A stretch of DNA of 38,461 nucleotides from a virus. Location of the stretch: positions 1 to 38,461 of IMG/VR virus record IMGVR_UViG_3300042885_000686; one strand, written 5' to 3'. A model generated the notes under the pieces. The model did not search any database, was not told the origin of the DNA, and saw only the letters and a program-made list of their open reading frames with translations. The translations under genes were made by a program, and so were the position numbers. Below, one piece after another: positions 2,043-30,844 of this stretch; position 1 is the first letter of the stretch; every line of letters begins with the position of its first letter.

Positions 2043-2909
2043 TTACACTGATAGATATCCTACCGTCACTAATGCCGTGCTTATAATAAGCAAGATCCTA
2101 TAGAGGCTCATATCTAAGTTAAAGTATCTTTTTGTAATAATTAAACATTTATGCGTAGGACTGATTAAATATCCCGCATAACCTAGTGAAAAAAGTAACG
2201 GTAAGTAGTTTATACCAAACATACTTACAAGTAAAGTTGTAATTCCGGCAAACTTACTGCTGGATCCCAGTATAAAACTTGTAACAAAAGAAATTACTCC
2301 AGCCAAAAATATGCCACTATTGAAAGACATAAGGAAGTCTACAATAGTATCTGAGTTCATCTTTATAGCATTTCCAACTAAGATGACCGCTGCTACAAGT
2401 AACACTACATCCCACTTAAAATTCTTAAACGGGCTTACTCTTTCGCCGGTATACTTTACATCCTTAATTACCACATCATCCTCTTTAAGTACAAAGAATA
2501 TGTAATATAGAGTAATACCAATTAGCGTAACAAGCAACGGAGCAATCATTGATATAAACTCAAAGTATGATAGTCCTAATACAGATAAAGGAATTAGCAC
2601 AGTTGCTTCTAATGGAGACCAGAGATAGTAATGATGCGTAGACAGATAGTTTATAACTCCATAGTTTTTTCTTCTACCATCATTAGGGGCAAGTGTATCT
2701 AATGCTCCGGCACTAATTATAGTTCTACCGGGAATAGGTAGTACTCCGGACACCCCGCTTATCAAAGCAATCAACAATCTTTTAGACTTTATCTTACTCT
2801 GTAAAAAGTTGTAAATAGGTATTAGGTATCCTCTGGAGTTAACCAAATTGGTTAGCACCATAATACCCGCTACAAACGGAACAAACCATATTCCTTCTAA
2901 CAACTCCAT
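2043..2909 (-). CDS. DUF401-type integral membrane protein
   Basis: A strongly hydrophobic protein of about 288 residues with around seven to nine likely membrane segments. Two blocks fit my recollection of the DUF401 family of predicted transporters. The first is SGVLPIPGRTIISAGALD (about 54-71) followed by INYLSTHHYYLWSPL (about 86-100). The second is GSSSKFAGIT (about 215-224) followed by GYLISPTHKCLIITKRYF (about 246-263). The usual family length is nearer 400 residues as I recall it, so this copy is short, but both signature halves are kept. The ATG at 2909 overlaps the TGA of the U32/methyltransferase gene (TGATG); a GTG at 2912 is an alternative. The substrate is unknown. Finding it between tail genes in a phage is unusual, and the tight coupling suggests it works with the upstream enzyme. 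Confidence 0.75.
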   Translation of the reverse strand: MELLEGIWFVPFVAGIMVLTNLVNSRGYLIPIYNFLQSKIKSKRLLIALISGVSGVLPIPGRTIISAGALDTLAPNDGRRKNYGVINYLSTHHYYLWSPLEATVLIPLSVLGLSYFEFISMIAPLLVTLIGITLYYIFFVLKEDDVVIKDVKYTGERVSPFKNFKWDVVLLVAAVILVGNAIKMNSDTIVDFLMSFNSGIFLAGVISFVTSFILGSSSKFAGITTLLVSMFGINYLPLLFSLGYAGYLISPTHKCLIITKRYFNLDMSLYRILLIISTALVTVGYLSV

Positions 2910-4534
2910 CACTTCTTAACTACAGCAATAAATAATCCATTCCACCACATGTCTTTATCCTCAACACTATTGAGCATTTTCTTATCGTAAACAATTGTAA
3001 GACCCGCTGCTTCAACACCATCAATAGCACCATCAACAACACCGTCCCAGTTAGCATCATCAAAGACAAGCACACACTCATCTGCAAACGTTGATGCAAA
3101 GTATTGTACTGCTAACTTTGTACTCTCATAAGAATGATCTCCATCGTATAAAAAAAGATCAATATTCTTAATAGAAGTTTTGTCTACATCTATAAAATCA
3201 CAGTTAAAAACTTTAATCTTATTCTCTCCTTTGTAAGGAAGAATATTATCAATAAAGTCTTGTTTTGTAACTCGCATTTCTATCTCTCCGTTCTCAGCAG
3301 CTACACCTTCTTTCCAATTATCTACACCGTAAGTATCAAGCTTATTGCCAGATATAGTACTAGAAAATGTTCTACCACCAAGACAGCCCACTTCCAAATA
3401 AGCCGTTGATATTTTACCAAGCTCGTTTAAAAGCTTATCAACTCTAGGACTAGATATTCCTGGAACCGTTGTTTCAAAGTCTGAATGAACACTTGTTACT
3501 AAAAGATTGGCAACTTGTGTAGCTTTTGTATTAAGTCTATCTGTAGCCTTTCTATCACAGAAGTTACAACTCCAGCACTCAAACTTACAGTTCTTTATAA
3601 TCTTTCTCCACTTACCGGCATCGGAGTCACTTATTCCAAGATTTATATCATAGAGCTTTTCTTTACCCTCTGCATAGTTTCGGACAATTTCCATTGTCTC
3701 ATATATCTTCTTTACGTTCTCTCTACCATGCATCTTAAAGATGTCTACACCAAGAGAAAGGAACTCATCCCAATCTTCTTTCCAAGCTGGAATATCTGCA
3801 GTCTTTAGCACAACAGCCGGATTAGTAAAGTCCCACTTAGGACATGATACTCTACTAATAGGATTATTAAAGTACTGACTATCTGTTGTACGAGTATTAT
3901 TGTACTGATAGTGTTCTGACATTACAGGACACTTACCCAGACAACCTTCATTAGCTAAAAGAACAAGCTTAAACGGCTTCTTTCTTTTAATCTTAACAAT
4001 AGTCTTTATAGTTTCCTGATCTCTCATCAGGGCTCTATCAATACAAACAGAATGAAAACCGCTTGATACTACATTGTAAACATCAGTCGGAGTCTTTGTA
4101 TCCATTAAGATAGAACTACGAACTTCTAGTTCCGGAAATTCTTTTTGTATCTGACCCGTTAATAGCCAGTGATTAAATGGTAAAGTGCATAACCTTACAC
4201 CCGCTGCATATAAAGGTCTAAATGATTCAATCCACAGATCTAAGTTTTCCTGTGTAGGTCTGACCGTGTTATTGTTACAAGTAGCCGATACAGTAATGCC
4301 AGTAATGCTTTGAATAAACAAAGCAGTATCAATCATGTATTGTGCATCATCATCTGTACCAAAAACATCCCCCATTGCATCTTGCGTAAATGGGGGTATT
4401 CTACACGTAAAATATAGATCCGAGATATAGTCTTTGTAAGTTTGACAAAAATCAACAAACTCTACAAACTGTGCCTCTGATAGCTTAGGATTAATAGGTA
4501 GACTAAATATCTTCGCCATCTGTTTTTTCCTCAT
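2909..4534 (-). CDS. U32-like Cys-rich barrel fused to SAM methyltransferase
   Basis: The 541 residues hold two parts. Residues ~5-330 look like a peptidase-U32-type TIM barrel: ANEGCLGKCPVMSEH (194-208), a further Cys in SRVSCPKW (231), and a cluster C316, C320, C323, C326. In studied U32 relatives such Cys hold an Fe-S cluster and the proteins hydroxylate RNA or quinones, so peptidase activity should not be assumed. Residues ~370-541 look like a class I SAM methyltransferase: YLEVGCLGGRTFSS (379-392), DLFLYDGDHSYE (459-470) and VLVFDDANWDG (488-498). The start overlaps the previous gene by 32 bases; a second Met at 4519 (MAKIFSLP) would reduce this to 17. The next gene starts on its stop codon. 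The substrate, possibly a nucleic acid, glycan or small molecule, cannot be told from sequence. Confidence 0.72.
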   Translation of the reverse strand: MRKKQMAKIFSLPINPKLSEAQFVEFVDFCQTYKDYISDLYFTCRIPPFTQDAMGDVFGTDDDAQYMIDTALFIQSITGITVSATCNNNTVRPTQENLDLWIESFRPLYAAGVRLCTLPFNHWLLTGQIQKEFPELEVRSSILMDTKTPTDVYNVVSSGFHSVCIDRALMRDQETIKTIVKIKRKKPFKLVLLANEGCLGKCPVMSEHYQYNNTRTTDSQYFNNPISRVSCPKWDFTNPAVVLKTADIPAWKEDWDEFLSLGVDIFKMHGRENVKKIYETMEIVRNYAEGKEKLYDINLGISDSDAGKWRKIIKNCKFECWSCNFCDRKATDRLNTKATQVANLLVTSVHSDFETTVPGISSPRVDKLLNELGKISTAYLEVGCLGGRTFSSTISGNKLDTYGVDNWKEGVAAENGEIEMRVTKQDFIDNILPYKGENKIKVFNCDFIDVDKTSIKNIDLFLYDGDHSYESTKLAVQYFASTFADECVLVFDDANWDGVVDGAIDGVEAAGLTIVYDKKMLNSVEDKDMWWNGLFIAVVKK

Positions 4535-5213
4535 TGGCTTTTAGTCCAAGAAGTTCACTTTCCGCAAACAACCCTAAGAAGTTACTACCAAGAAGATTGT
4601 TATTTGTATTGATAGCTTCTTCAATCCTATTAATACCAGCTGTAAGCTTCTTAGAATTAAGAAGTGCAGAACCAATAGTTAGAGCTTGATCTTCAGGTGC
4701 CATCATAGCAATTGAATCTAAATTACCGGCACCAATTCTACCTGTGGTTACCATATCTACACTAGCTTGTTTTGCCATTCGATAAATCCAATACTCTCTT
4801 TCAAGCTCGTCATTATGTACTTTATACTTTTCTAGTTCTGTAAAATTAGGAACAATCTCTATAATTAGTTTAGCAAATTGATCTAACTCCTCTTCTACAA
4901 TTCTCAACTTCTTTGTATATACAGAAATGTCATACTGAAGCTGATCAATATCTAAAAGAATAAGTTCTTTTTCAAGATCTTTTGATTCTAATGCATAGTC
5001 CCTTTCTTTAATCTTAAGCTGAACTTCTGATCTTTTACAGTCACGAATAATTTGTTTCTTAGCAGCAAGACGTGTTTCAATTTCTAACAGGGCTTGTCTA
5101 ACTCTCCGATAATCAGTAACTTGTGAGTTTACTACAAAGTACCGACTTTGAAAATCACTCATACTCCACCCACCTTGGGCTTCTGCTATTTGTAAAACGT
5201 CTTTCTTATTCAT
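4503..5213 (-). CDS. Coiled-coil phage protein, 236 aa
   Basis: The protein starts MNKKDVLQIAEAQGGWSMSD and then has a long charged helix from about residue 35 to 135, rich in Leu, Ile, Glu and Lys in heptad spacing (for example RLAAKKQIIRD and LEKELILLDIDQLQYD). The C-terminal third is less charged (MVTTGRIGAGNLDSIAMMAP, then a Leu/Asn-rich segment) and the end is acidic. No enzyme motif is seen. It overlaps the 5' end of the U32/methyltransferase gene, so the two are translated from one message. A virion baseplate or tail-accessory protein is plausible, but the function is not known. Confidence 0.65.
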   Translation of the reverse strand: MNKKDVLQIAEAQGGWSMSDFQSRYFVVNSQVTDYRRVRQALLEIETRLAAKKQIIRDCKRSEVQLKIKERDYALESKDLEKELILLDIDQLQYDISVYTKKLRIVEEELDQFAKLIIEIVPNFTELEKYKVHNDELEREYWIYRMAKQASVDMVTTGRIGAGNLDSIAMMAPEDQALTIGSALLNSKKLTAGINRIEEAINTNNNLLGSNFLGLFAESELLGLKANEEKTDGEDI

Positions 5214-5230: not shown

Positions 5231-5773
5231 TTAAAATCCTTTACTATAATCAACAGGTACAATGCGTAATCCTCTTTCATCTAAAAGACCCATATCATTA
5301 GCTTGATATACGGGCATCTCTACACCGAGAAGGTCTTCTCTTAGAATGTTTATATCCCAAATAGATGGACATACGTCAACAGAAGTAAGAATACTCTCTT
5401 TACCCGTTTGATTCTCTCTACGATTAAATTCATCTACAATTCTACGCTTAGTAATTTTTTTCATCAAGCTAAGCGTAACAGCTCTTGTGTGTTCTGTGTG
5501 ATAGACTTTAGTCTTAGATCCACCTTCTTCATCTGGTTCTAAACCCTCTACCGCAGAATAAGCTTTACGATAATCTCTAGAAATAGCATAAAACTTAGGA
5601 CCAATAGTAGCTTCATCTTCAGTAAGTTCTTCCATACTAACATTTAGAGCAAGAAGCTCAGCTTCAGCCTCAGTGGTAAGAGAAAAAATACCATAAGAGT
5701 CAAACCAAGTAAGAGAAATCATTCCAGTAATTTGCGGAACCTCTTTATAAAATCTTACAATAAAGTATTTCAT
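5231..5773 (-). CDS. Hypothetical protein, 180 aa
   Basis: The start MKYFIVRFYKEVPQITGMIS looks like a beta strand pair. An acidic middle follows (SMEELTEDEATIGP and GLEPDEEGGSK), then a basic helix (LMKKITKRRIVDEFNRRENQ, about residues 104-123). The C-terminus ends in RGLRIVPVDYSKGF. No known domain, membrane segment or catalytic motif is visible. It sits 17 bases before the coiled-coil gene and 13 bases after the 239-aa gene, in the same transcript as the tail module. Possibly a small tail or assembly protein; not recognised. Confidence 0.6.
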   Translation of the reverse strand: MKYFIVRFYKEVPQITGMISLTWFDSYGIFSLTTEAEAELLALNVSMEELTEDEATIGPKFYAISRDYRKAYSAVEGLEPDEEGGSKTKVYHTEHTRAVTLSLMKKITKRRIVDEFNRRENQTGKESILTSVDVCPSIWDINILREDLLGVEMPVYQANDMGLLDERGLRIVPVDYSKGF

Positions 5774-5786
5774 TTTTTAATTAATT

Positions 5787-6506
5787 TTAGTTAACTAATG
5801 CTTTAGTAAAACCTTCAGGACAGGTTTTTGTACATATCAAATCTGCAATAACCGGTGCAAATGCAGCTCCAATTGCAATACCAACTCCAGCTGGTGTTGC
5901 CCATAATTCTGCTGAATCTAAACTTTTAGCTAAACAATTTGAAATTATATTTTTTAATAGTGTGTGGTCAATACTATCACTAACATATGGTATTAGTAAA
6001 AATCCATCTGTTATAATTTCAGTCATTGCCATTACTACAGCCACCTTAGCCGCCTTATCAGCAACATAAAGAACGGGAGTTGCCATTAAAGATAAAGTAG
6101 TTGATGTTACTGCACCTTCGGGTTGAGCTGGTGAAAATGCTGCAGCACAACCTAAACCGATTGCAGCAGTTACTGCTATATTACAAGCATTCTTATCTGC
6201 CCATTCGTATGCGTCATGTACACCTTCTTTTACTACTTCATAACCCTCTTTAATGTCAGATTCTATTTCTTTCTCAATTAAGTCAAGTACTGGTGCAACT
6301 TTGTCATTCCACTCGTCACCTACCACATCTTCAAATCTATGATTTATTTCAGGGTGGTCATGAATATATCTTATTGCGCGATCACTAAGTCCCCATGTAT
6401 CACATGTTGAACAATGACCATCACCACCAAAACCATACCATCTTACGTAATTGTCACCGCAATCTGAGCGATGATAAACTATTCCGTCTCCGTTTCTATC
6501 CGCCAT
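5787..6506 (-). CDS. Two-part protein: Ca-loop/Cys head, hydrophobic C-terminal half
   Basis: The first 40 residues hold DRNGDGIVYH, which resembles an EF-hand or dockerin calcium loop, followed by C16, C32 and C35 (HCSTC), which may bind metal. Residues 60-105 are a charged amphipathic helix. The rest has three hydrophobic stretches (about 109-125, 135-173 and 204-224, the last ATPAGVGIAIGAAFAPVIADL), rich in Ala and Gly. These could be membrane segments or a membrane-inserting domain. Cys also occur at 108, 120, 191, 225 and 229. I do not recognise a family. Its position beside tail-adhesin genes would fit a protein delivered to, or acting on, the host envelope, but this is inference. A holin-like or immunity role is equally untested. 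Confidence 0.6.
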   Translation of the reverse strand: MADRNGDGIVYHRSDCGDNYVRWYGFGGDGHCSTCDTWGLSDRAIRYIHDHPEINHRFEDVVGDEWNDKVAPVLDLIEKEIESDIKEGYEVVKEGVHDAYEWADKNACNIAVTAAIGLGCAAAFSPAQPEGAVTSTTLSLMATPVLYVADKAAKVAVVMAMTEIITDGFLLIPYVSDSIDHTLLKNIISNCLAKSLDSAELWATPAGVGIAIGAAFAPVIADLICTKTCPEGFTKALVN

Positions 6507-6529: not shown

Positions 6530-6556
6530 CAAATATATTACTTAAAAACCAACAAA
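6530..6556 (-). promoter_or_regulatory. Possible Bacteroidota-type promoter before the 239-aa gene
   Basis: Read on the minus strand there is a perfect -7 type box TATATTTG (6530-6537). A TTTG lies upstream (6553-6556), but the spacing is 15 bases, shorter than the usual 19-20. The box is in the only gap of note (35 bases) between the Kelch-like tail protein and the 239-aa gene, so local expression of the downstream group is possible. The short spacing keeps confidence low. Confidence 0.35.
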
Positions 6557-7573
6557 TACTGCAGATCCTGTTGCACAACAACCAGAAGATGCTCCGTCGT
6601 GACCTTTGGGTTGAGTATCACTACCTAGGGCAGTGTATACATCAGTTAAATAATTAAGTCTAGACGAATCATTATTTTGTCCAGCTCCATCATAAGCACC
6701 AAGCATGTATCCCCAGTTTTGACCAATCTGAAAGTTTTCCTCACCATTAGTCTTATCCTTATTTACTGTGGCAAGGTTGGTACCTGTAGCTTCACTAAAC
6801 TTATAGAGAAAAGCAGATCCAGGGTATGACCCAATTCCACCGTATCCATACCCATGTTTACTAGATAAACCTTTTGGTTGACCGTCTGTTGCCCAGCTCA
6901 TTCCTCCGGTAGCCCATGTTTCTGTTACCCAAGTAAATGAAGACCCGGCACCTTGTGATATCCATGCTTTATACTGACCAAATAGAGAACCAAGACCACC
7001 GGCTGTAGCGCCAGCTAATGGAGATGCAGGAGCAGTTCCTGCAGAAAACATAATATCTGTTACGAAATTATGTCTATCCACCGCAGCAGATCCACCCCCA
7101 ACAATATATGCGGATGTTAAAGATGGTGTCATTAATGCTTCACAGTCAGTGCGTGTATTCTTTAAATATCTGGCAGCATCTAGTGAAAACATTGTTTCAG
7201 TAGTCATGCTCATAGCCTCTACAATAGTACCAGAACCTTGAACGGTTCCAGTACTAGGATAGACATAAGAATTAAAATCACTAAACCCTCCACCAATGTA
7301 ACTACTATTGTAAACCAGCTTATCTCCTAGGTTTGTAGTGAGATCTGTGGCATGAATAGTTTTATTTACATTTCTCCAAGGAGAGCCATTTTTATACCCC
7401 CCACTCATATATCCTTTTGTATAAATACTTCTATACAAAAAACTATTAGTAAATGGATTAGATGCTTGTGTATCTCCTATTGTTGTCCAAGTTCCATCCC
7501 ATAGATATATAATACCTGTAGGTGCAACAAATTGAGATCCTGTAGTTGGTGATGATGGAAATGAAAATGCCAT
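6542..7573 (-). CDS. Kelch-like phage tail protein, copy 2
   Basis: This is a paralogue of the gene immediately upstream (7576-8610). It begins MAFSFPSSPTTGSQFVAPTG then YLWDGTWTTIGDT, the short N-terminal tail-attachment motif seen in many phage fibre proteins. The body (about residues 45-320) has several Gly-Gly/Tyr-rich blades such as YMSGGYKNGSPW, YIVGGGSAAVDRHNFVTDIM, TETWATGGMSWATDG and NWGYMLGAYDG, consistent with a beta-propeller-like receptor-binding domain. It ends in TDVYTALGSDTQPKGHDGASSG, nearly the same as its twin. The two bases between the genes suggest coupled translation. Likely part of the host-recognition apparatus. Confidence 0.72.
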   Translation of the reverse strand: MAFSFPSSPTTGSQFVAPTGIIYLWDGTWTTIGDTQASNPFTNSFLYRSIYTKGYMSGGYKNGSPWRNVNKTIHATDLTTNLGDKLVYNSSYIGGGFSDFNSYVYPSTGTVQGSGTIVEAMSMTTETMFSLDAARYLKNTRTDCEALMTPSLTSAYIVGGGSAAVDRHNFVTDIMFSAGTAPASPLAGATAGGLGSLFGQYKAWISQGAGSSFTWVTETWATGGMSWATDGQPKGLSSKHGYGYGGIGSYPGSAFLYKFSEATGTNLATVNKDKTNGEENFQIGQNWGYMLGAYDGAGQNNDSSRLNYLTDVYTALGSDTQPKGHDGASSGCCATGSAVFVGF

Positions 7574-7575
7574 GA

Positions 7576-8610
7576 TTATAGTCCTCCTAATATTAATGCA
7601 CTAGCTGATGCTGTAGCCCCTGATGATGCTCCAGCGTGACCTTTGGGTTGAGCGTCTGATCCTAATACAGTATATACATCCGTAATAGAGTGTACTTTAT
7701 ATGTATTATTATTCTGAAGACCGTTGTAGTGACCTACACAATATCCCCAGTTTTGTCCAGTTTGATAGTTCTCTTCACCAGAGTTATCAAAATTCAAATC
7801 TGTTCTCATCTGAGCACCAGTAGTATCGTTTAGTTTATATGCACCGGTTACAATATTACCTCCGTTTTTAACGTAAGCATGTCCGTGTTTAGTAGATAAT
7901 CCTTTACCCCAACCATCTGTTGCAACGGTTGTTCCTCCAGATGCCCAGGTTTCTGTAGCAAAAATAAAGTTTGCACCTTGACCAGTCTTCCAAATCCAAC
8001 CTTTAGTCTCTCCTTGCCAGGCAGCAACGTTACCATATACATCGCCTACCGTTGGACCAGCCGGAGCAGATCCTAGTACATACATTATTTCTGTAACATA
8101 GTTATGCTTATCTGTAGCGGTAGATCCCCCAGCTGTAATGTAAGCCATTGTTAAAGTTGAATTCATTATACATCCAACATCATCTCGGCTAGTTTTAGTA
8201 TTCCAGTTAGAATCATGTGTACGCTTTACTTCACTACTCATATTAAAAGAAGAGGTGTGCGTACTAGCTCCAGAAAAAGAATCAGCAAGTCCATAGATAT
8301 ACGCATAGTAATCACTATAACCACCATCCACATATGAACCACCATAATCTAATCTATCTCCAAGATTTACAGTAGTATCTGTAGAGTGTACAGTTCTATT
8401 AGCATTTTTCCAGGGTGATGCATCCTTATATCCTCCAAACAAATACCCTCTAGTATAGATAGATCTAAACTTAAAAGGCTTTTCGGCAAACGGATTAGGT
8501 ATTGTAGTATCTCCTTTAGTAGTCCAAGTTCCGTCCCATAAATATAGTCTTCCTGTTGATGCAGGAAACTGATCACCTAATGTCGGAGAAGAAGGAAAGC
8601 TAATTGCCAT
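7576..8610 (-). CDS. Kelch-like phage tail protein, copy 1
   Basis: This twin of the following gene has 344 residues against 343. Its N-terminus MAISFPSSPTLGDQFPASTG plus YLWDGTWTTKGDT matches the twin almost position by position. Blade-like repeats include YLFGGYKDASPW, YITAGGSTATDKHNYVTEIM, TETWASGGTTVATDG and NWGYCVGHYNG. The C-terminal TDVYTVLGSDAQPKGHAGASSG is the best conserved part. It starts one base after the stop of the giant fibre gene. Divergence is concentrated in the middle, as expected of surface loops that contact host receptors. A tail or baseplate receptor-binding role is inferred. Confidence 0.72.
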   Translation of the reverse strand: MAISFPSSPTLGDQFPASTGRLYLWDGTWTTKGDTTIPNPFAEKPFKFRSIYTRGYLFGGYKDASPWKNANRTVHSTDTTVNLGDRLDYGGSYVDGGYSDYYAYIYGLADSFSGASTHTSSFNMSSEVKRTHDSNWNTKTSRDDVGCIMNSTLTMAYITAGGSTATDKHNYVTEIMYVLGSAPAGPTVGDVYGNVAAWQGETKGWIWKTGQGANFIFATETWASGGTTVATDGWGKGLSTKHGHAYVKNGGNIVTGAYKLNDTTGAQMRTDLNFDNSGEENYQTGQNWGYCVGHYNGLQNNNTYKVHSITDVYTVLGSDAQPKGHAGASSGATASASALILGGL

Positions 8611-8611
8611 C

Positions 8612-11600
8612 TTACAAATTATTAAGTTTTTCAGCTAACAAATTCACCATATTCTTAAGTTCCTCAATCTGAAATTGTTGAGCATCAATCTGAGCTTGTT
8701 GCTCTTTAATTGTCTCAACAAGAACGGCAGTTACTCTAGAGTAAGATACTGTTTTGATACCCTCATTAGTTTCTGTAACCAAGTCAGGAATAACAGCTTC
8801 TACTTCTTGTGCAATAAAACCAATCTCTTTTACATTCGGAGTGGCTTTCTTATTAAAAGATACACCCTTCAATTTCATTACTTTATCTAAAGAACTTTCA
8901 AGCGGAAGGATGTTTTCCTTCAATGAAATATCTGAAGTTTCAGTAAGAGTACCCTGAATAAGAGTGTTACCTACTACAGTAAGAGTTTGTTGAATTGCTA
9001 CATCTCCACTAATAGGACCGCCTGCTTTAGCATAGTAAAGAGACATATCTGGAACTGGGGTAGCATCAACCCAAGCAGAAGATGTACCATAGTAAACTTT
9101 AAGCTTACCGGTATCACTCTCCCACCACAGTTTACCATTAACACCAGCTGGTGGATTATCCTGTATAGTAACTACTACAGTAGCAGATGTTGCAGATGTT
9201 GCAGAAGATGCAGAAGATGCAGAACCAGCACTGTTAGCATAGTTAGCATTAGTTGCCGAATCAGCTAAACCAGCATGAGCAACTGATACACCAGCATGAT
9301 AGTTATCACCACTATAACCTTCTAACTTCCAATAAGTTCCAGTCCAATAAGTTTGTACAGAATAATCAGAGTTATCATCTCTACGATAAAGCCTAGTAAC
9401 ACCTCTCGTATTTCTTGAATCTGAATTAAGAGATGAGTTATTAGTAGTTGATACATATCCGCTAAGTGATGCAGCTGTCGCATATCCAGCACTAGCGTGG
9501 TTGCCCCACGAATAAGCAGTATTCCATTGTGTGGAATCTCCATATCCATAAGAGTATACAACAGCAGCTATAAAATTTTCATAAGAACTTCCAGGATTAT
9601 TTCTAATGGCCATCCTGCCACTAGCTTCCATCATGATGCTAGACGCAACTACCCCTGACCAATGGAATGCTAATTGAGGTGCATAAATTTCATTTGTATT
9701 ACTACCACCTCCAGAATTTTCTCTTACTTGATAGTTCGTTGTATAAGATGTTCCTGTTGAAGTAGATTGTATAGAACCAAGTCCAATAAGATTAGTTGCA
9801 CTTGAGGCAGTAGCGGCATTACCAGAAATATTAATCGCCCATGTACCACTTGCTCCTGTTCCTGTTAAAGTTGGAGAATAACTATTATAATTTGAACTAC
9901 TTAATAATTGATAATAAGCTGTCCATGTACCTGCATTTACCCATCTAACTCTTAAATCACCAGGTTGATCATATTGACCAACCATGTGCCATCCCCAACT
10001 ATTACTTGTATTATTAAAGTGACGACAAGCTATTCCGTGTACATGACTCATACCAGAAGGTAAATCACCCCCTGCCCAGTTATCTGTAAATCCAGACATA
10101 CCAGAGGGCATAGAAGCAAATGATGTTGCAGGTGTAACACCAGAACTACCATGAATTTGATCTCCTCTATTTATACCAGAAGGTGCCGTAGTTGCAGTAG
10201 CAGCATTACCTGATATATTTGTCTGATCACCTGTGTTTGTACCACTAGATGACCCACTAAAGTTGGCTGCGGATATGTTTCCACTTGTCCATATACCAGA
10301 ACCCATTGCTGCAGTGGTAACACCATTCTGCATTAATAAAAGTTGATGATTTAATCCTGCTTTAGATTGTGGATTATTTCCCGCACCACCGTAATCGGGG
10401 TTGTAAGACCAAGCCAAACCATATAGACTACCAATAGTACCTGACGCACCCCCATCTGTTAATACATAAGCGGGGCCCATAGCGAAAATAGCTTGGGTCT
10501 GCGCGGCATCATAAACACCTACTAGTCCTTTTCTTCCGTTACTAAAAACAATATTTTGTGAAGTGGAATTACCTCTATTTGTTACTGTACCCAGGGTATC
10601 TGTTTCAGTATAACCAGTAATATATCCACTGTTATTTGTAAACTGTGATATGTTCATAGAGCTTAACGCCCCAGCAGTTGCTACAGTTTGTGAACCAATA
10701 TTACCACTATGAATAAACTCTCTCCAAGTAAACCATCCTGAAGCATCTCTTCTTCTAAAGTAAGCAACATCCGATGCGTAATCAAATGCTAATTGTGTTC
10801 TTCTGTTGTAATCATCGCCAATGTTTATCGTTCTTATATTGGGCGATTGTAAAGGCGGTGTTCCAGATGGTATTGGGTCAAAAGTTTTAAAGGACTGTCC
10901 CCAATCAGCATCAATATTACCAGCACTAGTTCCATTAGCAATAACATAAGAACCGGCAGCTTGAGCACCTATTTCACCTAAAGTCCAAGATACGTTACCG
11001 GTTCCGTCAAAAGTCTTACCGGTTGATCCAATAGTTAAGGTTCTTCCAGTCTGGAGTGCAGTAGCAGTACCAGAATTACCGGTTATATTTGTCTGGTCTC
11101 CGGTGTTAGTGCCTGATAAGTTAGAACCAGTAATTGTACCTGATGCTGAAATATTTCCAGTAAGAACACTAAAGTTCCCACCTTTGGTAAACGTATATCT
11201 TTGAGTCCAGTTATTAGTTGTATATCCTGGTCCAAAATAATATTGTATATCTCCAGCAGAATCCATATGGATTAAGTAATGTGTATCTCCATTACTGCCT
11301 CTAAAAACCATTGACGGATGTGTACCAACAATATTAAAAGCTGCTGTGTAAGGACTTACACCCCAGTTAACATTTAATGTAAGATATCCATTTACAGTAG
11401 AAGATCCAGTTAACGTTGCTGCACTTGTTGCCGTAGCAGCATTTCCACTAATATTAGTTTGGTCACCTGTGTTTGTGCCGCTACTTGTACCACTGAAATT
11501 AGACGCTGTAAATGTTCCAGCAATCTGCATATTGCCATTACCAACATTTAATGCTGCAATTGGTGTTCCTCCATCAACTCCCCAAGTAAATCCTCTAGTT

Positions 11601-14600
11601 GCCCCATTACTATCAATGTTGGTCTTTATAGAATAATCGGTAACTGGACCATAATGATATTCGGCACTGTTACCCATGTGGATTTTATATAAATCAGAAC
11701 CTCCCCAGAATTTTAATCCATTACCTGCGCCAGCTGTTACACCATACGATGCATTTAGATTACTCGCATTTGGTGCGGAACCTGCTGTGGTTGCATAGCT
11801 TACTGATTGGCTACCGATAGTTCCAGAGTGAATCATTTCCACCCAAGCTCTTTTACTGGGCCAAGAACTTCTCCAAAAGAACCTATTATCTGCCTCCCCA
11901 GCACAAGCCATTTGGAAGCCATATACGGTGTTAGTATTTAATTCAGAGTAGTGTATTGATTGAAGACCGATATAGTGAGTTGAGCCTCCCGGTGCATTTG
12001 CTGGACTACTCCAAGAGTCAATAAATCCTGAACCCCAATTAGAAAATATAGTATTAAAATCTGTATTTCCAATACCCATTGTTCCATTACGATAACCGGC
12101 TGACCCGTTATATCTACCAACATAATCTGAATTAGCTGACATTGGATTCATACCATTGTAAGCCATCGTTAGAGTGCTTAATTTAAGCAGGTTAGATGTT
12201 CCGTTGGGGTCTAGGTAAAAGTCGGTGTTATTAGAATCGTAAAAAATTGGGGCTCTTAGAGATTGGTCATTTTGCAAATAGCCGCCATTGTCCATTAGGA
12301 CATTACCGCCATTGAATCTCATCTGCCAAGTGTTATTACCGCCAATATAAAGCTCGTCACCAGCACCAGCTTTTATCATAGAAGCGTTTGTTCCAGCCGA
12401 CGTAAGTGTTACCGTGGAAGTTGCATTTACATTAAATGTTGCAGTAGTTAATACACTATTATCACCAACTGAAAATGCACCAGGAATATTTACAGTGTTG
12501 GGTCCGGGGAATGAAACACTTGCGTAAGAACTATAACTAATAGTAGAAAAATCAAATGAAGGGCTACCTTCTACTTTGACATCTATCCCATTAGAGTTTG
12601 AAGAGTAAACAGGAAGAGAAACGTAACCATTCTCAATAACAAGGTCTCCCAATGCAAGGCTACCTAAAGCCATACCCGTAGCCGAAGTGATATTTACTTG
12701 CGGATAGTATATATTGGTCCCATCACAGTAGTATGAAACATCTGCGGAAATGTAGCCAAAAGCTGCAGCCCAATTCCACGTAGAACTTATCTTAATTTTA
12801 AAAGATACAATTCTAGTTTGTATCGGTTGGAGTCTTATATAAATACGTCCATTACCGTAGTTTGCTCCAGGATATGGTAAAGTAAAAGAATATTGAGAAT
12901 AAGCTCCAATATTTATAGCATTAAAATTTGCTCTATATAAATTAGATGTGCTATTTGGGTCTACATAATATCCCGTATCCTGAGAGTCGTAGAATATTGG
13001 AGCTCTAAAATCACCAGAAGTTTGGTAAGTTCCAGTTCCGCTTGATTTACTTGTTAAGTTATCAAAAGCAACACTTGTTATATAACCAGCAGATGCGTGG
13101 TTACCCCAACCATAAGCTGTATTCCAGTTAGATGAGTTACCACCAGATGCGTTTATTTGTCCTGTAGAAACAAAATCACCATTTACTTTAGCAGCACCAT
13201 ATACTTCAAACTCATATCCGTTACCAGTATATGTACCAAATCTAGCAGAATTAGACCAAACGTTTGCGGCTCCTAATGTTAATTGTACATATAACGGTAC
13301 ACCACCACCTTTATCAAACTTAGCAAGTCTGTGGTTGTACTGACCATTGGTATAGTTACCCATGATTTCAAGACCAAAACCATCTGTAGTTTCAGCAGCT
13401 CCCTGACCACCTTGTACAGTAATGCTACCGGTTGTAGTATTTCCACGAGCGGTTACAGTAGCAAGAGTATCAGATTCACTAGTTAGATATCCTGAGTTGT
13501 TGGTAAACTGAGAGATATTCATTGAAGTCAAAGCTCCTGCGGTATCAGCAAGTCTAGCACTATCAACCCTAACCCCATAAGTTTCACTTCCATTCCACCC
13601 CATTAAAGTAGGGTAAGTTCCAGCCCATGCTATCTGCGAGTTTGCATTGTTTACTGCTCCACCGCTTGGCGATGTGCTATTGGATGCATCAAAAATGGTA
13701 TGGGCGTTACCATAGTTCTTCCACATTAACTGACCAGCAACAGCATTATCAGTAACTCCTTTGTAGTTAGTTCTTCCTGTTGAGAATGTACTAGAAGTTG
13801 CTGCGTTACCAGTAGTATTCTGGTTCCAAGTAGGTACGGTTCCGGTTAATCCAGAATAAGCTACGTTAGTGGCTGTAGCTGCATTACCGCTAATATTGGT
13901 AGCAAGAGCCCCATAAGGAACTGTTTGTATTAGTGTACAATCAGATAAATCGGCATCTGACCAACTCCATCCTGAAGTATACAAATCAGCAGAGTTAGAA
14001 GAATAAACACTCTCTACGTACAACTTGGGCCAATAGTCAGGACCAGGAATATAAATAATTACATATCCATCAGGACTTTTAGCAAGACTGATTGTAGGAG
14101 CCCATGCACCATTAGAAATAGCTGTTCTGTTATAAAATTCATTATTATAATAGTGCCAACCAATAGATAAAGAAACCATCTGTCCGCTTCCATATCTAAA
14201 TCCTTTAATATTTACGGTAAAATCAGAACCTCCATAGTTCCACGGAATACTTGTTTTAATTTTATATTGAGTTGGAGTAACACCTGAATTAAGATCAAGT
14301 ATACCTAAAGAAAGTTTACGTGAATTAGCAGATACAATTCCTGTTACACCTAACCATCCACCAACAGTAGTATTATTACTAATTGTTATTGATGTTCCGT
14401 TTATATTGACAGCAGCACCACTGTAGATAATTAACCCTCCGAGATTATTGTCTTTGATATACTGTCCATTAGCAAAACCAAGACCTACGGGCTGTTGAAA
14501 GTTAAGTGTACCACTCATGGTACCTCCAGCTAAAGGTAAATAGTTTGCTAAACTAGAGGCAGCGGCATAACCAGCACTAGCGTGATTACCCCATCCGAAT

Positions 14601-17182
14601 GCAGTGTTCCATTGTGTACTATTTCCTCCTGTAGCTGTAACAGTTCCGCTTGTTAAAATGTTACCGGTTACTGTAAGACTCTGAAGAATACTAACATCAC
14701 CAGTTATTGCACCACCAGCTTTAGGGTAAAACAAAGTAACATCCGGCAGTGGTAATGCATCAATCCAAGCTGATGCAGCACCATAATATACTTTAAGTAT
14801 ACCAGTATCAGATTCCCACCAAAGTTGTCCGTTAACTCCACTAGGTGGATTATCTTGAGTTTTAACTACACTAATCTGTCCAATGTTGGTAATATTATTA
14901 CCACCCATATCAATGCTACCAGTCATTGTACCACCAGCTAGTGGAAGCTTAGTACCAATTGAAGTTGCAACAGTAGTAGCAAAATTCGGATCATCTCCGA
15001 GTGCAGCGGCTAACTCATTAAGAGTATCAAGAGTAGCTGGTGCAGCGTCTACAAGATTTGAAATAGCGGTATTTACATATGTTTGAGTAGCATATCCTTG
15101 AGAGGCATGGTTACCCCAACCGTATGCAGTATTCCAGTTAGAAATGTTAGTAGAAGTAAAATCTCCACTATGCCATAGACGCTTCCAAGAGGTCCATACG
15201 TCGGAATCCCTTGAGTTTCTTACGTATATACTAGTATCACTACTGTATAGCGCTGTGACTAATTGTGTTCTATAGGCTGCTCCACTTCTATGAAACGAAT
15301 ACTGTGTACCATAAGTATAGTCTGAAGTTGGCGCATTTGTTCCTCCATTTTCAGCAGATAAGAACGCTACATCTGGAAAATCTGTCTGGTTCCAGTTTGA
15401 TATAAGATTAGTTCCTCGTCTATTTCCAGACTGACCATATATAAATCTTGCAGAATCAATTCCATCCAATAAATCAGCATCAAGACCAGAGCCAGAACCA
15501 TCGTTTCCAGCAGTCCATACTTGAGCATTGTCCCAATAGAGAACACCATTAGTACGCATTTCAAGGAACTTGCCTACGTTACCACTAATGTGGAATGCAA
15601 TACCTGTAGTAGTATTACCAAACGATTCAGTCCAAAGAGCAGCAGTAGTATAATTATTATCAGTTTGATTTTTTCTAGCTTGTAAACCGCCAGTAAAAAC
15701 TGAATTAGTTGATGTGCTTGCTCCACGAGCAGTTACTGACGCTAGTGTATCTGTTTCTGTATAAGAAGTAAGATATCCTTGAGATGTAACCCAAGATTGT
15801 GTAGCGGCAAGGTTACCATTCAAGTATAGATTACCACTAGGTAACCAAGCATTACCTGTGCTAGCACCAATTTCAAAACGGGTGTTACCATCATCATCTA
15901 CAAACTGCCAACCTTCATTAGCTGCATTAGCAGCAATAAACTGCATAGTATTAGCAGTAAGTTGATTTCCGTTTTCTACAATAATGTTTCTACCAAGTCT
16001 CCAGTTTGTATCAGTATCAGCAAGAATAAATGAGTATCCGGTTGTGATACTCATATCTCCATTTGCTACTTGTAGTTTGTTAGATGGGCTAGTCGTCCCA
16101 ATGCCTACGTTGCCTCCGGATTTAACGTATAACTGATTCGTTGTATTTCCGCCCGCACCTACTACGATGTCACCATTGGCAGTGAGATAAGAGACGGCAG
16201 CAGTGTGCAAGACAACCACATTCGTGCCATCGCCAATAGCAAACTTGTTCCCACTGTAGCCGGTAGCTCCAACACTGCCAATTTGCAATGTGTTGGCTGG
16301 CGCCGTTGTCCCAATGCCGACGTTGGTTCCGTTGTCAAAGACTTGAGAATTACCAAGAGTAGTAGTTCCTGTAAACTTAGAAAGATAGTTGGTAGTACCA
16401 GAAGCATTAGCAGGAGTGTATCCTAACCAACCAGCAATAGTTTTATTTACCCAAAGGGTTCCGTTATAACCTAATAAATGACCATTTATAGGGGCGGTTG
16501 TAATTAAATCTACATCATGGATTTCCTTTAGTTCAAAACCATTCTGTACCTTAACAAAGATTTCTCCGTTATTTACATTTACTCTTGTTACAATACCAAT
16601 AAACACCAGGTGTGCTGGTGCATATGGTTTATTTGCTAACCCAAAAATTAAATTACCATTTACCCCAAGCCATACTGGTTCACCGGCTGTTTCAGCAGCA
16701 GATGTATTAAGACCGGCTAAAAGACCCTCTGTAATTACACTAGTAAAACCGTTTGCTGCAACTGTGGTATCTATAAGACCCATAGTTTTAGAAGAGGTTG
16801 CTTCTGTTGTATTAGAAGCAAGTCCTACAATCATGTTAGTGCCATCTGCACTTGTAACATAGACAGCCTGACCCTTTGTAATTGCAACTCCTGCTTTTAC
16901 AACATGTTTTAGTGTAGATGTATAATCAGAAGTTGCAATAGTCCAAGCTCTATTTGCTGATAAATCAAATGTAACCCCGTTAATTGTTAATGTTCTACTA
17001 ACCGGTACATAGTTACCTAATGATGTATTAGTAGCATAGTCCTGAGCTTTAACAAAGGCTGTAGTTGCTAGATGAGTTGAATTATCACCAGTTGTACGAG
17101 TGATACCGGTGGCGGTACTAAGTGTTGTAGTACCGTTCACCGTAATATCACCGGTAAATAAATTATGATTTAAAAACTTCAT
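8612..17182 (-). CDS. Giant repeat-rich tail fibre with S74 chaperone, 2856 aa
   Basis: This single reading frame is about 8.6 kb long. Residues ~1-60 are an attachment region (GDITVNGTTTLSTATG, STHLATTAFVKAQDYA). Residues ~95-225 look like a compact DUF2190-like beta domain. The shaft is a mosaic of fibre repeats: four WGNHAS modules (near bases 9500, 13100, 14590 and 15110), three SGTNTGDQTN modules (near 10215, 11100 and 11465), two PIFYDS-type modules (near 12240 and 12990), a GNDGSGSGLDADLLDG element, and a duplicated 62-residue DNPP-GVNG-LWWESDTG block. The last 107 residues are an S74 intramolecular chaperone beginning TSDISLKENI; self-cleavage would be near Ser2750. It is probably the main long trimeric fibre. 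Gene start is the ATG at 17182, after a 42-base gap with a hairpin. Confidence 0.88.
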   Translation of the reverse strand: MKFLNHNLFTGDITVNGTTTLSTATGITRTTGDNSTHLATTAFVKAQDYATNTSLGNYVPVSRTLTINGVTFDLSANRAWTIATSDYTSTLKHVVKAGVAITKGQAVYVTSADGTNMIVGLASNTTEATSSKTMGLIDTTVAANGFTSVITEGLLAGLNTSAAETAGEPVWLGVNGNLIFGLANKPYAPAHLVFIGIVTRVNVNNGEIFVKVQNGFELKEIHDVDLITTAPINGHLLGYNGTLWVNKTIAGWLGYTPANASGTTNYLSKFTGTTTLGNSQVFDNGTNVGIGTTAPANTLQIGSVGATGYSGNKFAIGDGTNVVVLHTAAVSYLTANGDIVVGAGGNTTNQLYVKSGGNVGIGTTSPSNKLQVANGDMSITTGYSFILADTDTNWRLGRNIIVENGNQLTANTMQFIAANAANEGWQFVDDDGNTRFEIGASTGNAWLPSGNLYLNGNLAATQSWVTSQGYLTSYTETDTLASVTARGASTSTNSVFTGGLQARKNQTDNNYTTAALWTESFGNTTTGIAFHISGNVGKFLEMRTNGVLYWDNAQVWTAGNDGSGSGLDADLLDGIDSARFIYGQSGNRRGTNLISNWNQTDFPDVAFLSAENGGTNAPTSDYTYGTQYSFHRSGAAYRTQLVTALYSSDTSIYVRNSRDSDVWTSWKRLWHSGDFTSTNISNWNTAYGWGNHASQGYATQTYVNTAISNLVDAAPATLDTLNELAAALGDDPNFATTVATSIGTKLPLAGGTMTGSIDMGGNNITNIGQISVVKTQDNPPSGVNGQLWWESDTGILKVYYGAASAWIDALPLPDVTLFYPKAGGAITGDVSILQSLTVTGNILTSGTVTATGGNSTQWNTAFGWGNHASAGYAAASSLANYLPLAGGTMSGTLNFQQPVGLGFANGQYIKDNNLGGLIIYSGAAVNINGTSITISNNTTVGGWLGVTGIVSANSRKLSLGILDLNSGVTPTQYKIKTSIPWNYGGSDFTVNIKGFRYGSGQMVSLSIGWHYYNNEFYNRTAISNGAWAPTISLAKSPDGYVIIYIPGPDYWPKLYVESVYSSNSADLYTSGWSWSDADLSDCTLIQTVPYGALATNISGNAATATNVAYSGLTGTVPTWNQNTTGNAATSSTFSTGRTNYKGVTDNAVAGQLMWKNYGNAHTIFDASNSTSPSGGAVNNANSQIAWAGTYPTLMGWNGSETYGVRVDSARLADTAGALTSMNISQFTNNSGYLTSESDTLATVTARGNTTTGSITVQGGQGAAETTDGFGLEIMGNYTNGQYNHRLAKFDKGGGVPLYVQLTLGAANVWSNSARFGTYTGNGYEFEVYGAAKVNGDFVSTGQINASGGNSSNWNTAYGWGNHASAGYITSVAFDNLTSKSSGTGTYQTSGDFRAPIFYDSQDTGYYVDPNSTSNLYRANFNAINIGAYSQYSFTLPYPGANYGNGRIYIRLQPIQTRIVSFKIKISSTWNWAAAFGYISADVSYYCDGTNIYYPQVNITSATGMALGSLALGDLVIENGYVSLPVYSSNSNGIDVKVEGSPSFDFSTISYSSYASVSFPGPNTVNIPGAFSVGDNSVLTTATFNVNATSTVTLTSAGTNASMIKAGAGDELYIGGNNTWQMRFNGGNVLMDNGGYLQNDQSLRAPIFYDSNNTDFYLDPNGTSNLLKLSTLTMAYNGMNPMSANSDYVGRYNGSAGYRNGTMGIGNTDFNTIFSNWGSGFIDSWSSPANAPGGSTHYIGLQSIHYSELNTNTVYGFQMACAGEADNRFFWRSSWPSKRAWVEMIHSGTIGSQSVSYATTAGSAPNASNLNASYGVTAGAGNGLKFWGGSDLYKIHMGNSAEYHYGPVTDYSIKTNIDSNGATRGFTWGVDGGTPIAALNVGNGNMQIAGTFTASNFSGTSSGTNTGDQTNISGNAATATSAATLTGSSTVNGYLTLNVNWGVSPYTAAFNIVGTHPSMVFRGSNGDTHYLIHMDSAGDIQYYFGPGYTTNNWTQRYTFTKGGNFSVLTGNISASGTITGSNLSGTNTGDQTNITGNSGTATALQTGRTLTIGSTGKTFDGTGNVSWTLGEIGAQAAGSYVIANGTSAGNIDADWGQSFKTFDPIPSGTPPLQSPNIRTINIGDDYNRRTQLAFDYASDVAYFRRRDASGWFTWREFIHSGNIGSQTVATAGALSSMNISQFTNNSGYITGYTETDTLGTVTNRGNSTSQNIVFSNGRKGLVGVYDAAQTQAIFAMGPAYVLTDGGASGTIGSLYGLAWSYNPDYGGAGNNPQSKAGLNHQLLLMQNGVTTAAMGSGIWTSGNISAANFSGSSSGTNTGDQTNISGNAATATTAPSGINRGDQIHGSSGVTPATSFASMPSGMSGFTDNWAGGDLPSGMSHVHGIACRHFNNTSNSWGWHMVGQYDQPGDLRVRWVNAGTWTAYYQLLSSSNYNSYSPTLTGTGASGTWAINISGNAATASSATNLIGLGSIQSTSTGTSYTTNYQVRENSGGGSNTNEIYAPQLAFHWSGVVASSIMMEASGRMAIRNNPGSSYENFIAAVVYSYGYGDSTQWNTAYSWGNHASAGYATAASLSGYVSTTNNSSLNSDSRNTRGVTRLYRRDDNSDYSVQTYWTGTYWKLEGYSGDNYHAGVSVAHAGLADSATNANYANSAGSASSASSATSATSATVVVTIQDNPPAGVNGKLWWESDTGKLKVYYGTSSAWVDATPVPDMSLYYAKAGGPISGDVAIQQTLTVVGNTLIQGTLTETSDISLKENILPLESSLDKVMKLKGVSFNKKATPNVKEIGFIAQEVEAVIPDLVTETNEGIKTVSYSRVTAVLVETIKEQQAQIDAQQFQIEELKNMVNLLAEKLNNL
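8975..9160 (-). repeat. Duplicated fibre module, copy A
   Basis: This encodes about 62 residues running from DNPPAGVNGKLWWESDTGKL through SSAWVDATPVPDMSLYY to ISGDVAIQQTLTV. It is closely similar to copy B at 14669-14854 in the same gene, 5.7 kb away. Copy A sits just before the S74 chaperone. The duplication has the form expected of module shuffling in fibre genes. Confidence 0.75.
14669..14854 (-). repeat. Duplicated fibre module, copy B
   Basis: This encodes DNPPSGVNGQLWWESDTGIL, then SAWIDALPLPDVTLFY, ending ITGDVSILQSLTV. It matches copy A (8975-9160) over its whole length with scattered substitutions. It is followed in the protein by a WGNHAS module, so module order differs from that around copy A. 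Confidence 0.75.
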
Positions 17183-24899: not shown

Positions 24900-26537
24900 T
24901 TAGAATGATCCGCCAGTAATTGGGTTTCTCATAACAATTTTCAACACTTTAGTAGCGTCTTTAACCCACAGAGCAGGCATGTTTTGAGTCATGAATACAC
25001 GGTATCCGTTAAAGTTACCAGAAGACTGGAAACCTTGACTGCGTCCCATGTAGTCCATAGTACCATTCTGATAGAACCACTTCAATTGGTTATCCCAAGA
25101 AAGCTTCAACAAGTAGATGTTGTCATTACCAGTTTCGGTGATGTCAAATACTACAAAGCTGTAAGAGCTCAAGGGGTGACCGTCAATCAATGGGTTTTCA
25201 ATGTCGTTGGTATGCAAGTTGTCAAATGCAGGATTCAAAACAAACTTAACGTTTGCCAAGAATGGAATCACATAGCTAGTGAATGCAAAACCGAAGTTAA
25301 GATCCATTGCACTAGAACCAGAGATCGCATTGATACCAGACTTATCACCATTAACTACCATACCGGTAAGACCAGTTCCGAAAGCTTCTTTCTTAATAGC
25401 CTCGTTAACAAGCTTCATACCACCTAGACCAGTTTGTACAATGATCTGACGCTTGGGGTCTGGACCTTGTAGTTCAACACGACCTTGGTAGAAGTTGTAC
25501 AATTCAGCCTTGAACATATCAAGAGAGAAAGAAGACTTGTTGTATACACGCTTAAAAGAGTTATCAAGCTGCTTCCACAAACCTACAGACAGACGAACAT
25601 CATCTGGACCATCTTGACGTACACGTCCACCATGACCCCACATGAGGTAAGTTTCCATGTCAGTAGCAATCTTAGACAGGTGAGCAGCTTCAAGAGTGGT
25701 CAAGAAAGTACGGTTCAAAGAGCCATTTGCCATAGCTTTCTTTACGTAGTCTTTACCCATGCGGCTAGCCATCATCTCCAAAGAAGTGATAGAAGGATCA
25801 ATGTTCTTGTCAAAGTTTCTCCAGATCTCAGTTACAGGTACAGAACCATCTTGGTTAAGACCACCTTTGATCATCATATCAGCACGTGAAGAAATGCTGT
25901 AGTGTACGTGAGCTTCTGCACCTCCTACGAAGTTGTAGAACTCACGGAATCCAGCACCGAATTCTCCGATATCAGAGAAACGCTCACCGTACTCACCACG
26001 TGCAGAACCTTTACGGAAAACTTTAGTACCGGAAGCCAGGTACTTGTTCTCCAAGAACTTCACGTTGTCATTATTTACAAGCTGTACAGTGTAAATGAAA
26101 CCGTCACCAGCAGGAAGAATATCTTCTGCAGTGATGTACATTTCAGCACCGTTGTACTTATCGTAGGTAATGATATCACCGTGACCGAAAGTACGCTTGT
26201 TAATTTTAATTTTGAAGGTAGTACCGTCAATACCCTTAGAGGTGTTGCCAGTCTCAATGTCTTCAATGATGTAAGGAAGGTCTTGAGTAACAGGAACCTG
26301 CCACTTGTACTCTCCTTTAGCATTGTCAACCATGATAGTATTCTTACCGCCGAAAGAAGCCATTTGATACAAAGGCATCTCTACCTTTTGTGCCATAGCC
26401 CACAAATCAACTGGACCCATGTCCATCGGCTCAGCCGACTTCAACATGTTTACCAGGTGGTAAGAATCTACATGGCTGGATGCCTGATACTGAGTATCTC
26501 TTAAAAAGATACCGTTGTTTAAAACAGGTGTTGCCAT
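24900..26537 (-). CDS. Major capsid protein (HK97-type, probable)
   Basis: At 545 residues, this follows the scaffold-like gene and has the composition of a capsid protein: even, no long coiled coils, many Gly/Asn/aromatic residues. N-terminal region: FLRDTQYQASSHVDSYHLVN, LYQMASFGGKNTIMVDN. Middle: RGEYGERFSDIGEFGAGFRE. C-terminal: MDYMGRSQGFQSSGNFNGYR, ALWVKDATKVLKIVMRNPIT. No protease motif is seen. Assignment rests on order (terminase, portal, scaffold, capsid), size and composition, and on similarity in style to large capsid proteins of Bacteroidota phages. Codon use appears more GC-leaning than its neighbours, as expected for strong expression. Confidence 0.75.
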   Translation of the reverse strand: MATPVLNNGIFLRDTQYQASSHVDSYHLVNMLKSAEPMDMGPVDLWAMAQKVEMPLYQMASFGGKNTIMVDNAKGEYKWQVPVTQDLPYIIEDIETGNTSKGIDGTTFKIKINKRTFGHGDIITYDKYNGAEMYITAEDILPAGDGFIYTVQLVNNDNVKFLENKYLASGTKVFRKGSARGEYGERFSDIGEFGAGFREFYNFVGGAEAHVHYSISSRADMMIKGGLNQDGSVPVTEIWRNFDKNIDPSITSLEMMASRMGKDYVKKAMANGSLNRTFLTTLEAAHLSKIATDMETYLMWGHGGRVRQDGPDDVRLSVGLWKQLDNSFKRVYNKSSFSLDMFKAELYNFYQGRVELQGPDPKRQIIVQTGLGGMKLVNEAIKKEAFGTGLTGMVVNGDKSGINAISGSSAMDLNFGFAFTSYVIPFLANVKFVLNPAFDNLHTNDIENPLIDGHPLSSYSFVVFDITETGNDNIYLLKLSWDNQLKWFYQNGTMDYMGRSQGFQSSGNFNGYRVFMTQNMPALWVKDATKVLKIVMRNPITGGSF

Positions 26538-26588
26538 TTTAAATATAGATTAAGTTAATGAAAAAAAAATTAATAAAAAATTAATAAA

Positions 26589-26601
26589 AACGTATTACGT
26601 T
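26589..26601 (-). terminator. Short hairpin plus U-rich run before the capsid gene
   Basis: On the minus strand AACGT-AAT-ACGTT begins within the stop codon of the scaffold-like gene and leads into TTTATTAATTTTTTATTAATTTTTTTTTC. The stem has only five base pairs, so any termination would be partial. No clear promoter box was found in the following bases up to the capsid ATG. Confidence 0.35.
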
Positions 26602-27868: not shown

Positions 27869-27908
27869 TATGTCAATGTTTTGGTTTATCTCACTAATAA
27901 TATACGGA

Positions 27909-27940
27909 TTGCAAATTAGATAAACTTATAAGATTTGCAA
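27909..27940 (-). promoter_or_regulatory. Candidate promoter within a TTGCAAAT dyad
   Basis: Inverted copies of TTGCAAAT (27909-27916) and ATTTGCAA (27933-27940) are separated by 16 bases; a third partial copy (ATTTGCAG) lies at 27965-27972. On the minus strand TTG at 27938-27940 and TAATTTG at 27912-27918 are 19 bases apart, close to the Bacteroidota promoter pattern, with one base missing from TAnnTTTG. Both promoter elements fall inside the dyad arms, so a regulator bound there could control scaffold and capsid expression. Confidence 0.4.
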
Positions 27941-27986
27941 CCGTTTACTGGTTTAGTCTAAAAAATTTGCAGTAATAAGGCTATAG

Positions 27987-30728: not shown

Positions 30729-30844
30729 AATTCTTCAATTGTGTTAAGCACATAAATTGTTGTGTACTCCATATCTGTTAATTCATCTATGTACACGTAC
30801 GAAAAAGATGTGTGATCACTTGTAGAAGTAATAGTCGTAAACAT
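30725..30844 (-). CDS. Small protein between terminase and portal, 39 aa
   Basis: The ATG at 30844 overlaps the terminase stop (TAATG), and the TGA overlaps the portal ATG (ATGA). It starts MFTTITSTSDHTSFSYVYID and ends with an acidic, hydrophobic stretch (TTIYVLNTIEEL). The start repeats the terminase opening MFIT in style, but not in sequence. Two perfect couplings make translation very likely. Role unknown; it may only carry ribosomes across the gap. Confidence 0.65.
   Translation of the reverse strand: MFTTITSTSDHTSFSYVYIDELTDMEYTTIYVLNTIEEL

Follow-up and report, generated by a model that had tools for sequence, protein, structure and literature searches.

The window analysed here, the whole 38,461-nucleotide stretch of IMG/VR virus record IMGVR_UViG_3300042885_000686, carries on its minus strand a fusion gene (2909..4534; 541 aa) of the T4-GC 354/phrog_1458 family, in which a U32-like barrel is joined to an O-methyltransferase. 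The gene is a single open frame of 541 codons running from 4534 to 2909. Because an ATG at 4519 (residue M6) has an AGGA upstream and is the start used by most homologues, the true protein probably begins there and has 536 aa. The barrel domain spans residues 1-330 (3545..4534) and the class I SAM O-methyltransferase domain residues 356-541 (2912..3469), both on the minus strand, with a variable linker between them (residues 331-355; 3470..3544, minus strand) in which 0/25 columns are conserved. Upstream on the same strand lie the partner gene GC353 (phrog_1409; 4503..5213), which overlaps the fusion gene, the fast-evolving cassette member GC352 (phrog_1604; 5231..5773), a weak match to a tail-fibre/lysozyme family (5787-6506), two copies of a gene for a phrog_1417 fibre-type protein (copy 1, 6542..7573; copy 2, 7576..8610), and the gene for a 2856-aa tail fibre (8612-17182). 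Downstream, the start of a gene for a DUF401/TIGR00529-like membrane protein (2043..2912, minus strand) overlaps the fusion stop, and a Peptidase_S74 tail protein (1133-2023) is encoded beyond it. The first-pass annotation had placed the fusion amid tail genes, as these neighbours bear out, and we take this setting as the main clue to function.

The fusion protein matched phrog_1458, a family of unknown function, over its whole length (E=3.6e-130); this is the family of the fusion itself, and its PHROG 1458 and T4-GC 354 annotations give neither function nor domain. A tblastn search of 50,697 phage records found the fusion in 123, full-length and in cyanophages without exception; many of these records are near-identical isolates, and the independent number is much smaller. 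In annotated records the product is called a hypothetical protein, with the tag T4-GC 354 in Syn19 and P-HM2. Two scans of IMG/VR recovered 124 and more than 580 relatives. The 80 loci of the first scan carry the full-length fusion, L072 being cut at its C-terminus, and in the second scan barrel and methyltransferase are joined in 79/79 loci. Viral forms with the barrel alone or in another fusion were considered and rejected, since many matches ended near residue 328 and yet all 79 of these loci encode both domains. A copy in Prochlorococcus phage P-SSM3 (L092 8001-9688) is broken by a stop and lacks annotation; phrog_36869, which consists of the barrel only, may be a broken copy of the same kind. 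No match to the fusion family was found on plasmids. A contig within a metagenome-assembled genome (L084) bears the fibre cassette, and is therefore probably a phage contig rather than of cellular origin; among genomes of the phylum to which the L085 MAG belongs, L085 was the sole relative found.

An assembly or frameshift artefact, which would have undermined the original claim, is excluded by the unbroken fusion in 125/125 distinct viral sequences and in the 123 annotated phage records, and we regard it as virtually certain that this is a real fused gene. In the alignment of these 125 distinct sequences, 30% of barrel columns and 11% of methyltransferase columns are conserved at the 95% level, compared to none in the linker, which implies that both halves are selected as enzymes, the barrel more strongly. 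Residues invariant in all 125 include D166, R167, N195, E196, C198, C202, M205, E207, H208, C231, K267, H269, G270, R271, C316, C320, C323, and C326 in the barrel and G383, G387, D405, Y463, D464, D492, D493, and N495 in the methyltransferase. The suggestion that no such phage system had been described stands insofar as the family is unnamed and no paper linking U32 proteins to cyanophages turned up among the open-access papers searched; the gene itself, as PHROG 1458, is widespread. Thus, the fusion is not rare, but defines a conserved, unnamed cyanophage family.

A barrel-only model built from 61 sequences (pLDDT 90.7, pTM 0.90) had the U32 protein Mk0906 (5d88) as its top match in a separate fold search (Foldseek, VIA-align; Z 17.9, rmsd 3.1, 227 residues), in agreement with the U32-like barrel first proposed. 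MTHFR, the next barrel family, reached Z 13.7, leaving Mk0906 a lead of ~4 Z units. The full-length fusion model (pLDDT 84) also matched 5d88, which has the same fold at 12% identity and whose solved chain has no fused methyltransferase. By sequence, the phage barrel had no direct Pfam match over the cut-off to Peptidase_U32 (PF01136), its profile had zero matches in the PDB, and hhalign of phage against canonical U32 barrels was weak (prob 35%). The same profile found stand-alone Chloroflexota proteins of ~410 aa (E 1e-30 to 2e-34) and a bacterial bridging protein, L099 (E=1e-12), which itself matches PF01136 (E=1.4e-15). In hhalign comparisons, phage barrels aligned with the Chloroflexota barrels at E 1e-29, the two together with L099 at 5e-15, and canonical U32 proteins with L099 at 4e-8. 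Because the Pfam U32 model is silent, the U32 link rests on the fold and the L099 bridge, and the bridge together with the weak direct match implies a remote U32 branch. We conclude with high confidence that the barrel belongs to the U32 superfamily.

The GC-x3-C signature noticed earlier is present as G197-C198-x3-C202, and seven cysteines are identical in 125/125 sequences. The C198-x3-C202 pair lies in an invariant NEGC-x3-C(P) motif (3929..3943; this and the following motifs are on the minus strand) equivalent to the U32 'GxxC...C', and aligns via L099 to the C170/C177 region of TrhP. The third invariant cysteine, C231 (3842..3844), is present in the stand-alone bacterial barrels too. The invariant K267-M-H269-G-R271 (3722..3736) is the counterpart of the U32 K-I-E-G-R and aligns with the KIEGR of TrhP, RlhA, and UbiU, so that the K-x-x-G-R after the cysteine region is retained. 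It is followed by an invariant C316-x3-C320-x2-C323-x2-C326 (3557..3589), whose cysteines probably ligate a second, auxiliary Fe-S cluster, and this four-cysteine set recurs in the stand-alone bacterial barrels and in L099. Shared with canonical U32 proteins are R167 (of the U32 'LxRELS'), the C198 pair, and KxxGR. The check proposed at first was an alignment with the cysteines of UbiU, UbiV, and RlhA; only the first pair aligns with the canonical U32 pattern. The canonical four-cysteine pattern (CX6CX15-16C... in TrhP, RlhA, and UbiU) is not found, its third and fourth cysteines are missing from their place in the alignments, and the other five barrel cysteines form a separate set outside that pattern. 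The essential glutamate of TrhP (E162) and RlhA (E161) is likewise without a counterpart at that place in the sequence alignment; E196 lies near the position of the missing TrhP E162 in sequence. With its own cysteine set and TrhP's essential glutamate missing from the alignment, the barrel is, as judged by sequence, a divergent branch of U32. The pattern of three barrel cysteines plus a ferredoxin-like four suggests two Fe-S clusters, and binding of Fe-S by the barrel is probable.

A class I SAM methyltransferase in the same chain had been predicted and was recovered by both sequence and fold. It is the only part of the fusion protein matched in Pfam (Methyltransf_24, residues 380-493, E=1.2e-7; 33 bits against a cut-off of 26.3, which places it in that family). 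Among the SAM-binding residues, G383, G387, and D405 are invariant and E381 is present in 121/125 sequences. The best PDB sequence match was B. subtilis YrrM/TrmR (E=0.006), and COMT/catechol-type O-methyltransferases led the matches to the model fold (Z 16-17), with Methyltransf_24 and SpnH/MycF-type sugar O-methyltransferases within ~1-2 Z of them. The invariant D492-D493-A-N495 (3050..3061, minus strand) forms, with D464 (3143-3145), a candidate divalent-metal site that aligns with the 'DN' and 'FIDAAK' of TrmR. The metal of COMT is held by two Asp and one Asn (PMC6543040). The phage enzyme matches the COMT/TrmR (Methyltransf_3) fold and lacks the Asp-Asp-Asn plus Lys base of that group: D464 and D492 are kept, D493 replaces the Asn ligand, and H467 replaces the Lys base. 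These residues point to a likely O-methylating enzyme of a subfamily other than COMT/TrmR; that this half is a SAM O-methyltransferase we consider probable.

The fusion is the last gene of a cassette ordered phrog_1417 fibre-type protein, GC352, GC353, fusion. The first-pass annotation had named recurrence as support, and the fusion recurs (125/125 distinct sequences) together with its neighbours: among distinct loci with sufficient flank, 84/84 have GC353 upstream of the fusion on its strand and 82/84 have a phrog_1417 gene there, and after clustering at 60% identity both are found in 17/17. For the fusion, GC353, and phrog_1417 alike, the count of phage records is 123, and the organism breakdown is identical. 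Two contigs, L064 (1-13713) and L075 (1-13051), carry the whole cassette as a tandem duplicate, complete with a second GC353 and fusion. In the window, the two phrog_1417 genes (6542-8610) are tandem paralogues beside one enzyme gene, and 2-3 copies are common in relatives. The phrog_1417 protein has no Pfam domain, and we infer that it is a fibre protein from its place among tail-fibre genes; in its core, Y60, W66, H74, Y92, Y289, and Y294 are invariant or nearly so. The DUF401 gene lies within 2.5 kb downstream of the fusion in 37/93 loci and is an optional neighbour. This transporter-like protein (DUF401/TIGR00529) occurs in only 9 phage records, and is distant from the fusion in S-CAM4.

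The cassette is common to T4-like and crAss-like cyanophages. In region 24900-33018 of the window, the portal is 32% identical to that of Leptolyngbya phage Lbo-JY46, followed by crAss-like phages, and the head, portal, and terminase families are unlike those of T4-like phages; the window belongs to a crAss-like phage that probably infects cyanobacteria. A T4 portal is encoded by 15 of the 40 long fusion-bearing contigs, and a crAss-like portal by 1. In the tree, both crAss-like fusion copies are nested inside the T4-like ones (support 99/97, midpoint root), which implies that the cassette probably moved as a unit between unrelated phages. Because it moves as a whole, trees of the cassette genes do not separate a substrate from a linked gene.

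U32 proteins whose roles have been tested take part in hydroxylation, and pairing of a U32 barrel with O-methylation is known from other systems. In B. subtilis, yrrM-yrrN-yrrO makes tRNA ho5U and then mo5U, with TrmR, encoded in an operon with the U32 genes, capping the new hydroxyl, and TrhP and RlhA hydroxylate RNA in a prephenate-dependent manner (PMC6599085). TrhP1/TrhP2 and TrmR (YrrN/YrrO and YrrM) resemble the fusion in combining a U32 hydroxylase factor with a subsequent COMT-fold SAM O-methyltransferase, but are separate proteins of one operon acting on tRNA, whereas the fusion is one phage chain in a fibre cassette, with divergent cysteines and a methyltransferase of the Methyltransf_24 type. 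UbiU and UbiV are O2-independent quinone-ring hydroxylases with one [4Fe-4S] each (PMC6747719). Like the fusion barrel, they are U32 barrels with cysteines, which in their case ligate [4Fe-4S] for aromatic hydroxylation without O2; they differ in being a heterodimer with a quinone substrate and in cysteine layout (UbiU CX6CX16CX38C, UbiV CXnCX12CX3C, fusion barrel C-x3-C...C...C-x3-C-x2-C-x2-C). In the UbiU/UbiV pathway, hydroxylation is followed by O-methylation. The stand-alone Chloroflexota barrels (L095-L098, L100) have the same C-x3-C-P, C, KxxGR, and C-x3-C-x2-C-x2-C as the phage barrel but no fused methyltransferase; their neighbours are RdhA-like genes and, in two cases, also an O-methyltransferase gene. 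At L102, L103, L104, L105, and L106, stand-alone Chloroflexota barrels are near reductive-dehalogenase-like genes; in L105 and L106, the barrel gene and the reductive-dehalogenase-like gene flank an O-methyltransferase gene, which is adjacent to the barrel gene and on its strand. Thus, U32 barrels and O-methylation are coupled in three arrangements: the B. subtilis operon, the Chloroflexota neighbours, and the phage fusion.

We propose, tentatively, that the fusion is an O2-independent hydroxylase and O-methyltransferase, a one-chain analogue of TrhP1/2 plus TrmR, that acts on a protein of its own cassette; this grading applies to all steps together, taken as correlated. The barrel would bind one [4Fe-4S] via C198, C202, C231, and another ligand, and an auxiliary cluster via C316/C320/C323/C326. 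It would add a hydroxyl group without O2, as do TrhP, RlhA, and UbiU/V, probably on an aromatic ring and possibly using prephenate or a metabolite related to it, and the COMT-like half (D464/D492/D493 plus metal) would O-methylate the new hydroxyl. The target would most simply be phrog_1417, whose core is rich in invariant Tyr, Trp, His, and Asn, and the enzyme's role, late in infection, would be the maturation of a structure that recognises the host. Taken singly, hydroxylation by the barrel is slightly favoured, and a cassette protein as substrate has about an even chance. The strict tie of the enzyme to the fibre gene and GC353 (with GC352), and their joint duplication, favour a cassette protein; the linkage to fibre genes is an association and not proof that the fibre is the substrate. 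The conserved aromatics of phrog_1417 are compatible with aromatic hydroxylation followed by O-methylation. Fold and fusion are well supported; the chemistry and substrate are inferred. The most specific form of the proposal, an O2-free, one-chain maturation of the phage's own fibre in which, for example, an invariant fibre Tyr becomes methoxy-tyrosine, is improbable as it stands.

Other readings fit parts of these data. A one-chain TrhP plus TrmR might make 5-methoxyuridine at the wobble position of phage or host tRNAs during infection, given that the domain pair is identical to that of B. subtilis yrrM/yrrN/yrrO, that TrmR is the best PDB sequence match of the methyltransferase, and that many cyanophages encode tRNAs. 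However, the fusion sits in, and is duplicated with, the fibre cassette, unlinked to tRNA genes; zero tRNAs were found in the window, and one copy per fibre copy would be pointless for a tRNA enzyme. We therefore consider a tRNA substrate improbable, and the cassette proteins are more probably the target. Somewhat less unlikely is that a sugar, lipid, or quinone of the host envelope is hydroxylated and O-methylated, for example in a superinfection block or in receptor tuning. This would suit the receptor theme of a fibre locus, the closeness of Methyltransf_24 and SpnH/MycF sugar enzymes to the COMTs in fold score, the small-molecule-type Methyltransf_2 O-methyltransferase beside Chloroflexota relatives, and a DUF401 membrane protein that could take part where it lies nearby. 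Against it, DUF401 is missing beside most copies while GC353 is constant, and the fusion overlaps or closely trails a cassette gene, as expected of a partner of those proteins.

The barrel might also perform other Fe-S chemistry (dehydrogenation, epimerisation, or sulphur transfer), or serve a structural or peptide-binding role, with the methyltransferase alone modifying the target. The differing cysteine set and the non-conserved position of TrhP E162 allow this, and the reductive-dehalogenase-like neighbours of the bacterial barrels mean that the chemistry of those barrels may be reductive; full conservation of R167, C198, C202, K267, G270, and R271 argues instead for retained active-site chemistry, and we consider this alternative rather unlikely. 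That the barrel belongs to a different TIM-barrel family, with its cysteines there by chance, is highly improbable. Such a family would account for the silence of Pfam U32 and for the Z of 13 reached by MTHFR and other barrels, but is largely refuted by the 4-unit lead of Mk0906, the bridge from L099 to PF01136, and the invariance of the seven cysteines.

The O2-independent hydroxylation and O-methylation proposed here would supply a likely chemistry for the cyanophage family T4-GC 354/PHROG 1458, which is widespread and unnamed and is tied to one fibre cassette that passes between phages of the T4-like and crAss-like groups. Should the fibre be the target, very abundant marine phages would have enzymatically modified receptor-binding proteins, which has apparently never been looked for, and U32 enzymes would reach beyond RNA and quinones. 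Fibre maturation, if true, would establish a class of protein modification that is new, with the fusion as the first U32 enzyme to act on a protein. Cyanophage S-SM1, for which a virion proteome is published, lacks the fusion gene. At the matching place before denV, it has two 2OG-Fe(II) oxygenase genes (L117 33496-34724), which may mean that one hydroxylase type has taken the place of the other.
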